Source of the DNA: a virus
DNA: 64,000 bases
Reading direction: 5' to 3' (one strand)
IMG/VR virus record: IMGVR_UViG_3300010885_007382
Location: 29,826-93,825 of that record
Shown here piece by piece: positions 5,684-62,135 of the stretch. Position numbers and translations under genes: made by a program. Each line of letters begins with the position of its first letter. The stretch's first letter is position 1. The notes under the pieces are model-generated. The model ran no database searches, had not been told where the DNA came from, and saw only the letters and a program-made list of their open reading frames with translations.

Positions 5684-5712
5684 ATAATAGCATCCTAAGA
5701 GCGGAATGTCAA
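5684..5712 (-). promoter_or_regulatory. Strong sigma70-type promoter
   Basis: TTGACA (5707-5712), 17-bp spacer, TATTAT (5684-5689) on the minus strand, 36 nt upstream of the Gly/Tyr-rich exported gene. The -35 flank and the -10 region closely match those of the promoter at 8454-8482. Confidence 0.8.
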
Positions 5713-8453: not shown

Positions 8454-8482
8454 ATAATAGCATAAAAAGCCCGGAATGTCAA
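8454..8482 (-). promoter_or_regulatory. Strong sigma70-type promoter
   Basis: TTGACA (8477-8482), 17-bp spacer, TATTAT (8454-8459) on the minus strand. The -35 overlaps the stop of the upstream oxygenase gene. Drives the HAD, RlpA, APS kinase, sulfotransferase and oxygenase run. Confidence 0.8.
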
Positions 8483-58294: not shown

Positions 58295-58500
58295 TATCGT
58301 CGCTCCCGCTTAAACTTAGGTGCGATAACGTTTCCCATCTCTCTATCATATTCCACAATGGCATTATCAATAGCTGTCTTGATAGCAGCAAGACGCTGGC
58401 GATAGTTGCCACGAACATGAACTCGTTCTTTCTTGTCCTTCATGGTAGCAATCAATGACTGAACCTGAAAAGGTACATCAAACTGATTCTCTTCTTTCAT
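58294..58500 (-). CDS. Small basic hypothetical protein
   Basis: 68 aa from the ATG at 58500 (AGGAGAGAGTG). Basic, Arg/Lys-rich (KDKKERVHVRGNYRQRL and KFKRERR at the end), suggesting nucleic-acid contact. Overlaps gene 55's end by 23 nt. Common next to gene 55 in T4-like phages, function unknown. Confidence 0.65.
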   Translation of the reverse strand: MKEENQFDVPFQVQSLIATMKDKKERVHVRGNYRQRLAAIKTAIDNAIVEYDREMGNVIAPKFKRERR

Positions 58501-59050
58501 CACTCTCTCCTACAAACTTTTCAAGACCTTCTTTTTTCTCTTTACGCTTTTCTTTCTTTACCAGTTCTCTTTCCTCAAACCTACCGATAAACTCATTGAT
58601 GTTATCATACATTGTGGTCGGTATCATATGATTACCATCGTTATCAAGCATCAAATCAGATACACTGGAATCAAGAACACTCTCTTGAAACTTCTTGTAT
58701 ATTATATATCTATTCTTCTCTTCTTTGTTTATACGTCTATGAAAGGCGTAGTAGATGATCTGTGTAAAGTATGCGAACGGATTACTATACTTGTCACTAT
58801 CAAAGTTATCAAAATACATCAAGCAGTTTTCAATGGCGTCAGATTTCATTTCATCAACAAACGAGTAGTTCATGAACCTAGGCTTATGTGCTAAGTTCTC
58901 CGCAATAAGAAAGATACACTTTCCTATGTAGTCCGAAAGAACAGGCTTCTCTTTACCTTCAGCAAGGGCAATCTTACAGTTTTTCTTATACTCAACTATC
59001 TCATTATAAAATCTTTCGTTATCTACATAGTGCGTTTTCTTCTTAGCCAT
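58478..59050 (-). CDS. 55: Late sigma factor gp55
   Basis: 190 aa from the ATG at 59050 (GGAG 7 nt before). The core IAENLAHKPRFMNYSF, then DEMKSDAIENCLMY, SNPFAYFTQIIYYAFHRRI matches T4 gp55 almost residue for residue. Directs host RNA polymerase to TATAAATA late promoters. The basic C-terminal tail should contact gp45. Confidence 0.96.
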   Translation of the reverse strand: MAKKKTHYVDNERFYNEIVEYKKNCKIALAEGKEKPVLSDYIGKCIFLIAENLAHKPRFMNYSFVDEMKSDAIENCLMYFDNFDSDKYSNPFAYFTQIIYYAFHRRINKEEKNRYIIYKKFQESVLDSSVSDLMLDNDGNHMIPTTMYDNINEFIGRFEERELVKKEKRKEKKEGLEKFVGESDERRESV

Positions 59051-59810
59051 TGCTGTCTCCATGGAACGGACATGTTCCTCGTTCTTTATTTCTTTTCCTA
59101 AGCTGTAACACTTTTCTCCATCCATAGAATGATGGGTTATCTGATATCAGTCTCAACTTTTCAAACTCAGGCTTTGTTACCAGATGATTATGAACCTTTA
59201 GTTTCTTTTCTGACAACGGAACTAGATGAACGAAAGGATTACCGACAGGTATCATAAACGTTCCATTCCGCATAGGAAACATAAAATTCACATTCACTGG
59301 AGATATTATATCAAAGTTTATCACCCCTGGCAAGACTTTTATTTCAAGTTTATCAAGAGACCATTCCGCACCAAGCCATAGAAACTTAGCGCCTGTCTTC
59401 TCTCTGAATGCCCAAGGACTTACAAGTTTGATATGATAATGATTAGGAAAAGATCCACCGAGTTGTTCTCTAATATGATCTTGAGGCGGATCGGTATTGT
59501 TGGCAGCCCAGTAATGATAGATACCATCTTCAATCTTGAATGAGATATCACTCCAGTTTTCTATTATGATACCTTTCTTATACAATTCCACAATAGCATA
59601 GCAATCCCTAGCCGTCATATCTTCGTGTTTTCTAAGAAAGTGTCCGTTCTCAGGTGTGCTATAGAAAGTAGGTTCGTAGGGAGTTAGCTGTTGCCACCAG
59701 TCTGGAAATGCTTTACTTGCTCTGACAATGGGTGTTGTCATGTAGGTTTCATTACTAGCTGTAAAGCAGTCTAGATGGATCTCAGGCGCTCTATGAAAAA
59801 AATGGAACAT
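59043..59810 (-). CDS. Conserved hypothetical protein next to gene 55
   Basis: 255 aa. Aromatic and Pro-rich; central strands with IKLVSPWAFREKTGAKFLW then VLPGVINFD and FMFPMRNGTFMIPVGNPFVHL. Related-looking proteins sit beside gene 55 in cyanophages and recall DUF6065. Ends in a small Cys/His (CPFHG) motif. Function unknown. Overlaps gene 55 start by 8 nt. Confidence 0.72.
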   Translation of the reverse strand: MFHFFHRAPEIHLDCFTASNETYMTTPIVRASKAFPDWWQQLTPYEPTFYSTPENGHFLRKHEDMTARDCYAIVELYKKGIIIENWSDISFKIEDGIYHYWAANNTDPPQDHIREQLGGSFPNHYHIKLVSPWAFREKTGAKFLWLGAEWSLDKLEIKVLPGVINFDIISPVNVNFMFPMRNGTFMIPVGNPFVHLVPLSEKKLKVHNHLVTKPEFEKLRLISDNPSFYGWRKVLQLRKRNKERGTCPFHGDSNG

Positions 59811-59835
59811 AATGTAAAAACTTTCATTTTGGCCC

Positions 59836-59864
59836 TTGACAGGCTTTTCACACCTCGGTATAAT
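59836..59864 (+). promoter_or_regulatory. Rightward consensus sigma70-type promoter
   Basis: Plus strand TTGACA (59836-59841), 17-bp spacer, TATAAT (59859-59864): perfect boxes facing right, opposite to all nearby genes. Start would be near 59871. The transcript would hold a GTTGC-GAA-GCAAC hairpin (59929-59941) and enter the 59941-60243 gene antisense. No protein gene is seen behind it. Confidence 0.65.
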
Positions 59865-59940
59865 ATGCTTTGCATTAACACCACTACTACCAATTGCAAA
59901 CCAAATGCAACTTACGAGCGAAGCGAGTGTTGCGAAGCAA

Positions 59941-60243
59941 CTACTTAGCAGTAGTAAATCCTGGTTCAGTAAGCATCATTAGCTTATCAATCTGCTTTTT
60001 AAGCACAGGACCACGATCAGGCCACTTGATAATAGGTTGATCGGAATTCTTTGATAAGTTCTGTAGTAGAGGAAGATATATCTTTCTGACTGCTTCCAAT
60101 CTCTTTTTAAGGTCAGCGATTTCATCCACTGTAGGAGCAGTTGCTTCTGCTACAATGTCGTCTTCGTTGCTGAATGAAAAACCAAAGTCATCTACTAGGT
60201 CAGCATCTTCTAGTGATAGGTATGGGTTAGTTGTAGTAGCCAT
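59941..60243 (-). CDS. Conserved small hypothetical protein
   Basis: 100 aa. Acidic disordered N-terminus (LEDADLVDDFGF), then a helix ending KIYLPLLQNLSKNSDQPIIKWP, with IDKLMMLT behind it. This KWP(D/N)R pattern is conserved in cyanophages and related T4-like phages. Function unknown. 1-nt overlap with the gene before. Confidence 0.72.
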   Translation of the reverse strand: MATTTNPYLSLEDADLVDDFGFSFSNEDDIVAEATAPTVDEIADLKKRLEAVRKIYLPLLQNLSKNSDQPIIKWPDRGPVLKKQIDKLMMLTEPGFTTAK

Positions 60244-60662
60244 TAGTGATACACCTTCTTATTATATAGTCCTGCTTCTTCTAAGGCCTCTTTCAACCTT
60301 TCAAAAGAGTTTTCTTCCTCGGACTTTTCATTTACCTTTTCTTCCTCTTGTGACTTCTTTGTATAGTAGTCCATGTTGTTCCAGTAATACTCATTCATCT
60401 TTGGTGCTACATCTACCATAAACAGAATATCAAGGGAATGTATAATGAACTCTTGTTGCTCACATATACGTGGAAAGACCCATGGCATAAATGCTACAGT
60501 AAGATAACCTGAAGATTCCGAAGGTACATATACAACTTTAAGAGGATGGAATAGCGCATAGACTACACCATTCTCATCCTCCATCTCAACTACTTCCGCA
60601 ATCACATCATCCCCATTTTGTAATCTAACTAGCTTCGCATTGGGATAATCACTGATATCCAT
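60243..60662 (-). CDS. Sm-like phage protein
   Basis: 139 aa. Begins KLVRLQNGDDVIAEVVE and later HPLKVVYV, IIHSLDILF and MNEYYW, the phage Sm-like barrel type, followed by a highly acidic tail (QEEEKVNEKSEEE). A second, shorter copy is at 17079-17390. RNA or protein binding is possible. Confidence 0.7.
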   Translation of the reverse strand: MDISDYPNAKLVRLQNGDDVIAEVVEMEDENGVVYALFHPLKVVYVPSESSGYLTVAFMPWVFPRICEQQEFIIHSLDILFMVDVAPKMNEYYWNNMDYYTKKSQEEEKVNEKSEEENSFERLKEALEEAGLYNKKVYH

Positions 60663-60665
60663 AAT

Positions 60666-62135
60666 CTATCCTTTCATACTTATTTTGTAGATTTTGAACT
60701 TGAACTTTTCTTCGTTGTAGGTTTTAACTCGCTCGAAGAAATGCTTGAGAGTAAAATTCTCTTTTGACTTCCAGCTAAAGTCGTCGGCAATGTCATATAA
60801 GGTGGCGGATTTCTTTGTGTCACTAACCCTAAGACCTCTACCGATTGATTGTAAGTTACGAATCTTGGACTTGGAAGGAGATGAAAATATGACGTTATCC
60901 AAGGCCACGATGTTAGTACCAGTGCTAAGAACACCAACGGACCCAACAATAATAGCATTGTGTTCAGTCTCGACGATCCTTCGTATTTGTTCTCTATCTT
61001 CGACATTTGTTCCTCCGTGAATAAAGAAGACCTTTCGTCCTTCTTTAGATTTACTCTTAATCATGTCATATAGAATAGCACCATGCGACTCAACATAGTT
61101 GAACAGCAATAGAGTATTGCCTTCCATTGAGATAGCAAGATTTGTAACAAATGTGTTACGTGCAGGATTAGATATGATATACTTTATCTCATCCTGATAT
61201 GATGCTGATTTCATATACTGACATTCTTCGTCACTATATTTCAATATCAAACATTTAATGGTCAATTCAGCCAGTTGCTTTTTCTTCATCAACTCAGCCG
61301 AGGTTGTAGCCTTATAGACTTGACCAAACAACCCTATCAACTGCCATTCATGAGACTTGGCACCTGATAGTGTTCCTGTTACACCAAGACGATAGTTTGC
61401 CTTGGTACATTTACCTACGATATCTGTTAGCGCCTTAGCTTGTGCCTGATGCACTTCGTCACAGATAACGTAGTCAAACTGTTGAAAGTATTCTTTTGGT
61501 AATCTCTGTAATGACTGCCATGTAGAGATTATAATTGGCTTCTCTGATACTTTATCTTTACCTGAATAGACACGATGACAATACTTGTCCATGTCTTTGC
61601 CATTCTTAGCAGAATAGTCCTCAAAGTCACTATACATTTGTTCTACTAGGGCTGACCTCGGAACAATAAGAAGGCCTCGCTTCCCTTGTTTAAGAAGATA
61701 ATTACAAACAAGATATAGCAAAAGAGACTTGCCGGAACCAGTAGGACTAAGAACAATGCGACGTTTAGAACGAATAGCATGGACGAAAGCATCCATCTGA
61801 TAATCTCTAGGAAGATGTTTCGGGTTAAGTTTTTCAACAAACTCTTTTGCCTCATCTAATGAGAATGATGTATCTAGGTCTTCACCAGAATACTCAAATG
61901 TATATCCATGGTTCTCTGCCCATTCAATAACTTGTGGTGCTAGACCACGATACATTTGTCTATTGAGTGGATTGAATAGTCTTAGATAACCATCCCAAAG
62001 TTTCTGCTTGTAAGAAGGAACAAACTGAAACCCTGGGGGTCTAAATGAGAATGCGTCTCTAAGTTCCCATGCCACGCTTTCGTCACAGTGAACCTTGATG
62101 TAGGATTCATTCTCATTAGTAATAGTAATATGCAC
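60666..62135 (-). CDS. uvsW: DNA/RNA helicase UvsW
   Basis: 489 aa (T4 UvsW 503). Superfamily 2: LSPTGSGKSLL, DEVHQ, GVTGTL and the C-terminal SIGRGLR; the N-terminal part LPRDYQMDAF fits the Q motif. Rewinds R-loops and branch-migrates forks, moving replication from origin to recombination mode. It starts 1 nt after UvsY's stop. Confidence 0.96.
   Translation of the reverse strand: MHITITNENESYIKVHCDESVAWELRDAFSFRPPGFQFVPSYKQKLWDGYLRLFNPLNRQMYRGLAPQVIEWAENHGYTFEYSGEDLDTSFSLDEAKEFVEKLNPKHLPRDYQMDAFVHAIRSKRRIVLSPTGSGKSLLLYLVCNYLLKQGKRGLLIVPRSALVEQMYSDFEDYSAKNGKDMDKYCHRVYSGKDKVSEKPIIISTWQSLQRLPKEYFQQFDYVICDEVHQAQAKALTDIVGKCTKANYRLGVTGTLSGAKSHEWQLIGLFGQVYKATTSAELMKKKQLAELTIKCLILKYSDEECQYMKSASYQDEIKYIISNPARNTFVTNLAISMEGNTLLLFNYVESHGAILYDMIKSKSKEGRKVFFIHGGTNVEDREQIRRIVETEHNAIIVGSVGVLSTGTNIVALDNVIFSSPSKSKIRNLQSIGRGLRVSDTKKSATLYDIADDFSWKSKENFTLKHFFERVKTYNEEKFKFKIYKISMKG

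Follow-up and report, generated by a model that had tools for sequence, protein, structure and literature searches.

A conserved counter-oriented promoter and paired hairpins beside uvsW suggest an undescribed regulatory RNA or replication signal in T4-like phages

What does a perfect host-type promoter do in a gap between genes that run the other way? T4-like phages are very common aquatic viruses, and to our knowledge neither early and late timing nor the start of replication is settled for those without the T4 polymerase-modifying genes. We examined this question at one locus of a T4-like record, in a 64,000-nucleotide stretch (the window) that corresponds to bases 29826-93825 of a 93,825-base IMG/VR sequence. 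In a comparison of UvsW proteins, the closest named phages were Kyanoviridae with identities of at most 47%, indicating a T4-like phage without a close isolate in the collection compared. The leftward gene order is tail-tube gene, uvsY, uvsW, Sm-like gene, orf100 (our name for the 100-amino-acid gene at 59941-60243, minus strand), gap, phrog_7084 gene, gp55, and SbcD-like gp47. The features of the locus are:

58478-59125, minus strand: gp55 late sigma factor gene (phrog_234, E 2e-55)
59043-59810, minus strand: phrog_7084 gene, left neighbour of the gap, missing from some relatives
59305-59333, minus strand: promoter-like site TTGCCA-17-TATAAT (11/12), upstream of gp55, putative function
59836-59864, plus strand: orphan sigma70 promoter, exact at 12/12, with TTGACA at 59836-59841, a 17-nt spacer and TATAAT at 59859-59864
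59865-59875, plus strand: palindrome ATGC-TTT-GCAT, directly behind the -10 box and spanning the predicted start
59871-59913, plus strand: predicted RNA start (near 59871, from the usual distance to the -10 box) and leader, A/C-rich and unstructured
59914-59928, plus strand: hairpin 1, AC-GA-GC-GAA-GC-GA-GT, in which GA faces GA (G.A mismatches) below a GAA loop, with co-varying flanks
59929-59941, plus strand: hairpin 2, GTTGC-GAA-GCAAC, with a co-varying outer stem
59941-60243, minus strand: orf100, 100 amino acids, without family, antisense to any read-through
60243-60662, minus strand: small gene next to uvsW, weakly Sm-like/DUF6561, also antisense to read-through
60666-62135, minus strand: uvsW helicase gene (phrog_16, E 7e-102), a possible antisense target

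The conserved promoter and hairpins suggest that a regulatory RNA or replication signal, so far undescribed, lies between the early and the late genes. Because the counter-oriented border promoter has counterparts in S-CREM1 and Syn19, questions of timing and origin can be tested in existing laboratory systems.

An orphan promoter in a non-coding gap

A sequence-only reading of this DNA had described a perfect rightward TTGACA-17-TATAAT inside a leftward region, and our scan confirmed it as a 12/12 match, with the 16-18 nt spacing of a sigma70-type promoter. Five perfect promoters occur in the window, four on the leftward coding strand and this one on the plus strand, compared to a mean of 0.03 expected per window from dinucleotide shuffles of the window. 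No supported gene was found in the gap between the leftward ORFs at 59043-59810 and 59941-60243. ORFs do cross the RNA region in the window, yet a coding reading was rejected because neither the start-to-hairpin distances (10, 11 and 12 nt) nor the hairpin linkers in relatives are kept in threes.

No named phage had DNA similarity to the region at E 1e-5, and a short query run at E 10 returned seven records with weak partial matches, to Vibrio and Sulfolobus viruses, which we took as chance. Among bacterial genomes 39 stretches matched, but none held a relative of any of eight window proteins compared and none had a second GCGAAGC close behind; these were therefore also taken as chance, and they give no clue to the host.

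Conservation of the gap in relatives had been named beforehand as a check on the promoter, and it bore the promoter out. A profile search of viral contigs with orf100, which used neither promoter nor hairpins and thus gave an unselected sample, yielded 52 non-redundant gaps from the best 80 of 315 loci. Within this sample, both boxes and their spacing were kept as a 12/12 antisense promoter in 51 gaps, the exact double hairpin was present in 45, and promoter and hairpins co-occurred in 51 when variants were counted. The spacer sequence drifts while the boxes stay. Six promoter-bearing gaps carry variant hairpins: a GTA loop replaces GAA in hairpin 1 (L209 and L239), the hairpin 2 loop is GTAA (L247) or GTTA (L197), or a G-C pair has become A-T (L219 and L220). 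The sole exception among the 52 is the most distant gap (L250, 48% identity). Six relatives found through the left-neighbour protein likewise retain the boxes and the 17-nt spacing, with varying spacer and gap.

Pattern searches located the same unit. A scan for the hairpins only found 69 stretches, and the hairpin pattern had 78 matches (48 distinct) in the loci of the first pass. A 12/12 antisense promoter with 16-18 nt spacing was found at all 34 distinct places adjacent to orf100, the window copy included, in a first-pass set that was selected on hairpins. The strict promoter-plus-hairpin pattern matched 86 stretches; of the 80 listed, 67 lie beside orf100, four lie between gp55 and uvsW without orf100 (L106, L115, L165 and L292), and nine lie elsewhere, including two (L087 and L281) with a sequence similar to that of L106. 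A relaxed promoter plus AGCGAAGC pattern, which served only as a negative control, matched at least 120 stretches, and among the matches listed those without GAGCGAAGCGA were scattered, mostly at unrelated places. This last result is what a chance promoter-like sequence would resemble. Such an origin is extremely improbable for the window copy given the 0.03 perfect matches expected and the 51 of 52 gaps (best 80 of 315 loci) that keep it; on comparison of sequences, the orphan promoter is not a chance match.

Further observations concern the immediate surroundings of the boxes. The 59865-59875 palindrome takes the form ATGCTTTGCAT or CTGCTTTGCAG in several relatives, its ends varying together (ATGCTTTGCAT to CTGCTTTGCAG) as expected of an operator or 5' hairpin, and is weak or absent in others; either function is possible. 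In four loci (L338, L341, L343 and L387) a second TTGACA falls within the spacer of the promoter, roughly one helical turn further along. In three gaps (L018, L020 and G004:C1:119080-119162), leftward and rightward consensus promoters stand back-to-back.

Two adjoining hairpins and the predicted RNA

The sequence-only reading had noted a GTTGC-GAA-GCAAC hairpin behind the promoter. That hairpin (hairpin 2) is present, and the description was incomplete in that it overlooked hairpin 1, which touches it. The hairpin 2 core TTGCGAAGCAA occurs once in the window compared to 0.01 expected. The final base of hairpin 2 is also the final base of the orf100 stop codon, so that antisense overlap with orf100, as the same reading had proposed, starts there.

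The structure, written by hand, was evaluated on 30 distinct aligned hairpin pairs, in which 98.1% of cells paired compared to at most 44% for slid versions. Loci with the hairpin pattern but without a 12/12 promoter were excluded from the RNA rows (13 loci: L025, L035, L036, L037, L040, L044, L045, L049, L051, L058, L060, L064 and L075). We counted 34 double changes, a number inflated by kinship among the rows, compared to 9.4 ± 2.2 in shuffles, none of 500 of which reached as high. Because the search expression behind these rows prescribes the GA pairs, the loop ends and some of the stem positions, pairs could vary freely only in columns 2-4/16-18, 7/13 and 25/36; all 34 double changes fall in these columns. 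An earlier count with other cuts agreed, giving 20 double changes versus 5.3 for hairpin 1 (24 distinct rows) and 31 versus 12.7 for hairpin 2 (19 distinct rows, two rows with four-base loops left out). RNAalifold, run on a plain alignment (A2), returned five pairs with none compensated.

In the 30 aligned rows the plus-strand loops stay G..A and hairpin 1 keeps GA facing GA. The facing GA is a stable arrangement in this sense, and c(GNA)g DNA hairpins are known for stability; in the minus sense the loop ends and the facing GA would be U.C mismatches. With RNA parameters, hairpin 1 of the window folds as plus-strand RNA (-1.4 kcal/mol) and not as minus-strand RNA, whereas hairpin 2, taken by itself, gains stability in the minus-strand RNA (-4.9 versus -3.2 kcal/mol). 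The strand preference of the hairpins fits RNA and single-stranded DNA alike.

With a start at the usual 7 nt behind the -10 box and an end some 4 nt beyond hairpin 2, the predicted RNA is 60-89 nt long (median 74). The 37 distinct leaders are 70% A+C and 11.7% G, and ACCA is found in 36 of them. Predicted RNAs of two relatives fold better than shuffles (L052, z -3.35; L068, z -2.59), and those of the window and L003 fold no better (z -0.33 and 0.24). No family in Rfam 15 matches the RNA by covariance models, the best nearby match being an upstream one at E 8. The terminator scan listed neither hairpin on either strand as an intrinsic terminator, which requires a T-run behind the hairpin on its own strand. 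A test for extra synonymous constraint under the antisense, on 49 distinct orf100 genes of 74, gave no clear signal (two flagged columns, one before the gene proper). Thus the anatomy, the covariation in the hairpins and the location next to uvsW and gene 55 agree with the earlier suggestion of a small RNA or antisense control, which fares less well within orf100, where the antisense stretch shows little extra constraint. Promoter and structure are well supported by comparison; from them we infer the RNA and its function.

The product of the Sm-like gene is a possible partner of the predicted RNA. It matched PF20198 (E 1e-4) and PF16243 (E 0.014), both below the cut-off, and phrog_431 (E 5e-13). 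Its counterpart in S-CREM1 is annotated 'RNA-binding protein'.

Position in the genome and distribution among lineages

Across eight records of 92-174 kb (this one and seven relatives), nearly every perfect promoter is on the coding strand. In seven of the eight, this promoter is the single perfect one on the non-coding strand; in the other (G002) it is one of three. Each of the five records larger than 160 kb has a stretch of 65-81 kb that is devoid of perfect coding-strand promoters; the element lies inside this stretch or at most 2.8 kb from it, and at most 8 kb from its edge. The annotation of S-CREM1 shows structural genes up to gp23, then uvsY, uvsW, the 'RNA-binding protein' gene, the gap, gp55, gp47 and replication genes. 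It has 33 sites of 11/12 or better in the direction of the genes and two opposed to them; its longest coding-strand desert (77,750-152,190, about 74 kb) ends at the gap, where the coding-strand site at 152,190 adjoins an antisense site at 152,148. From gene content, we infer that the promoter-poor stretch is the late block and that early genes start at the gap.

Equivalent gaps were scanned in 15 cultured phages, several of the cyanophages being close kin; RB27, which has a different gene order, was left out. An antisense site of at least 10/12 was present in 12, all of them among the 13 cyanophages; MA10 reached only 9/12. Of the two non-cyanophages, Melnitz has no antisense site and the gap of Moby measures only 11 nt. 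The cultured cyanophages thus keep the promoter in the gap, and hairpins of this type are absent. The RNA model found no strong match in cultured phages, the best (E 0.014) being in S-CREM1 at another place.

The survey of further lineages drew on 72 of 74 uvsW-related loci, L405 and L406 being too short. In 17 of these, gp55 was out of reach, and 41 non-redundant gaps were judged. An antisense site of at least 11/12 was found in 16 of the 41 and a 12/12 site in nine, two of which (L348 and L351) are members of the orf100 group. As background, 118,596 nt of upstream sequence from these loci held three sites of at least 11/12. The L115/L336 and L165/L377 lineages have similar hairpins with other stems, which the RNA model matched weakly (E 1.7e-4 to 0.17).

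At E 0.01 the RNA model gave one match in seven of the eight records and two in G004. The extra copy in this 165-kb record (L036:5404-5428, or G004:C1:14005-14038) is non-syntenic and far from uvsW. It lies at about 14.0 kb, antisense, just past a stop codon, and is preceded by TTGCCA-17-TATAAT (11/12). This copy suggests that the unit is portable and argues against a role confined to uvsW. In another T4-like group, GAGCGAAGCGACATTGCGAAGCA occurs without a promoter near gp19, uvsY or uvsW (L040, L058 and L075; twice in L040).

Readings of the element

Overall, a conserved noncoding RNA locus at the border of late block and early genes in a T4-like phage group is the best explanation, one that we hold at even chances. 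Its parts differ in strength: the conserved promoter very probably makes a plus-strand noncoding RNA, and a cis antisense or boundary role is proposed tentatively. Early in infection the perfect promoter would be recognised by host sigma70 polymerase in its unmodified form. Transcription would begin near 59871, giving an RNA that carries the A/C-rich leader and ends in or just past the two adjacent G..A-loop hairpins, at a length of about 60-90 nt judged from the conserved anatomy. As there is no terminator, part of the transcription would continue and produce RNA antisense to orf100, the Sm-like gene and uvsW. The main role would be in cis, with early antisense transcription or collision keeping the late block quiet at its end, and uvsW in particular, until polymerase is switched to gp55. 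According to two sources, T4 UvsW is made from a late promoter and clears R-loops at origins (PMC3016281), and early genes of cyanophages are believed to be transcribed by host polymerase without modification (PMC2984593), their host-type promoters having the same sigma70 consensus; early antisense against uvsW would make sense on both grounds. Unlike those early promoters, this one faces against the genes and serves no supported ORF. Comparison supports the promoter, its orientation, its place and the hairpin covariation, and on this basis we propose the expression, timing, ends and effect of the RNA. A promoter pointing into the late block is common to lineages and the hairpins occur only in some, which favours a cis effect, while the extra copy in G004 is a point in favour of the RNA itself. 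Points against this explanation are the z of -0.33 for the window RNA, the RNAalifold result, the little constraint in orf100, the greater strength of hairpin 2 as minus-strand RNA, the G004 copy, which a purely uvsW-directed role leaves unexplained, and the cultured cyanophages without hairpins.

That same copy, with its 11/12 promoter and its antisense position after a stop codon, and the retention of hairpins and ACCA leader would also fit an RNA whose leader and hairpins act in trans on other RNAs or on a protein (the adjoining Sm-like protein being one candidate), the antisense position being incidental. We consider this somewhat unlikely, given one copy at one place in the other seven records, cultured cyanophages that hold the promoter there without these hairpins, and the weak Sm-like match. 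Alternatively, the hairpins could have nothing to do with the promoter and serve the leftward orf100 mRNA, either stabilising its 3' end or acting as its stop signal: they lie directly past the stop codon (GAGCG to stop, 25-72 nt in the 34 places), hairpin 2 is stabler as minus-strand RNA, and similar promoter-less hairpins follow genes in the other T4-like group (L040 and L058). This is improbable, however, since hairpin 1 folds only in the plus sense, the G..A loops and facing GA are kept on the plus strand in all 30 rows, and promoter and hairpins, variants included, occur together in 51 of 52 gaps (best 80 of 315 loci).

An unlikely alternative of another kind is a replication origin of the T4 oriF/oriE type, in which the promoter transcript would stay as an R-loop and prime leading-strand synthesis while the displaced plus strand would form c(GNA)g DNA hairpins of very high stability. 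T4 minimal origins, as PMC3016281 describes them, are about 100 bp with a promoter, oriE apparently having an early one; three active origins lie at transcription strand switches, and UvsW removes R-loops. The element shares with oriF (ori(uvsY)) and oriE the form of a promoter element of about 100 bp near uvsY/uvsW or at a strand switch, and it is the sole counter-oriented perfect promoter in seven of eight records, adjoining uvsW. In contrast to oriF, which combines a MotA middle promoter with an AT-rich unwinding element, it has a full sigma70 consensus and extra hairpins, and the stretch behind the promoter (59865-59912) is not AT-rich, at 38% GC versus 39.5% in the window. The leader is G-poor, and although transcription direction would switch at the element, no GC-skew shift occurs there in S-CREM1 or G003. 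The two ideas could be combined as an early/late border device across Kyanoviridae and uncultured relatives, with one counter-oriented host-type promoter per genome that quiets the late-block end early and starts R-loop replication, UvsW later removing the R-loop. Were this improbable scheme true, antisense RNA, origin and off-switch would lie together.

Among known systems, the nearest likeness is CfrI of cyanophage S-PM2 (PMC2984593 and PMC5931967), which also comes from a T4-like phage, is noncoding and runs antisense over the 3' end of an opposite-strand gene. CfrI differs in being about 225 nt long and directed against psbA (to whose 3' end it is complementary) and a homing endonuclease gene; the present element lies elsewhere, at the uvsW/gp55 border, and no psbA family match was found in any of the eight records examined. 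The element is not described in the accessible text of the literature on cyanophage antisense or noncoding RNA and on T4 R-loop origins; the Syn9 transcriptome (Doron et al. 2016) may list such a start.

Elsewhere in the window, strong terminator-like hairpins with T-runs lie on the leftward strand at 55143-55113 and 63239-63220 (minus). Two leftward promoter-like sites, at 5684-5712 and 8454-8482 (minus), share TTGACATTCCG...ATGCTATTAT, as if duplicated.
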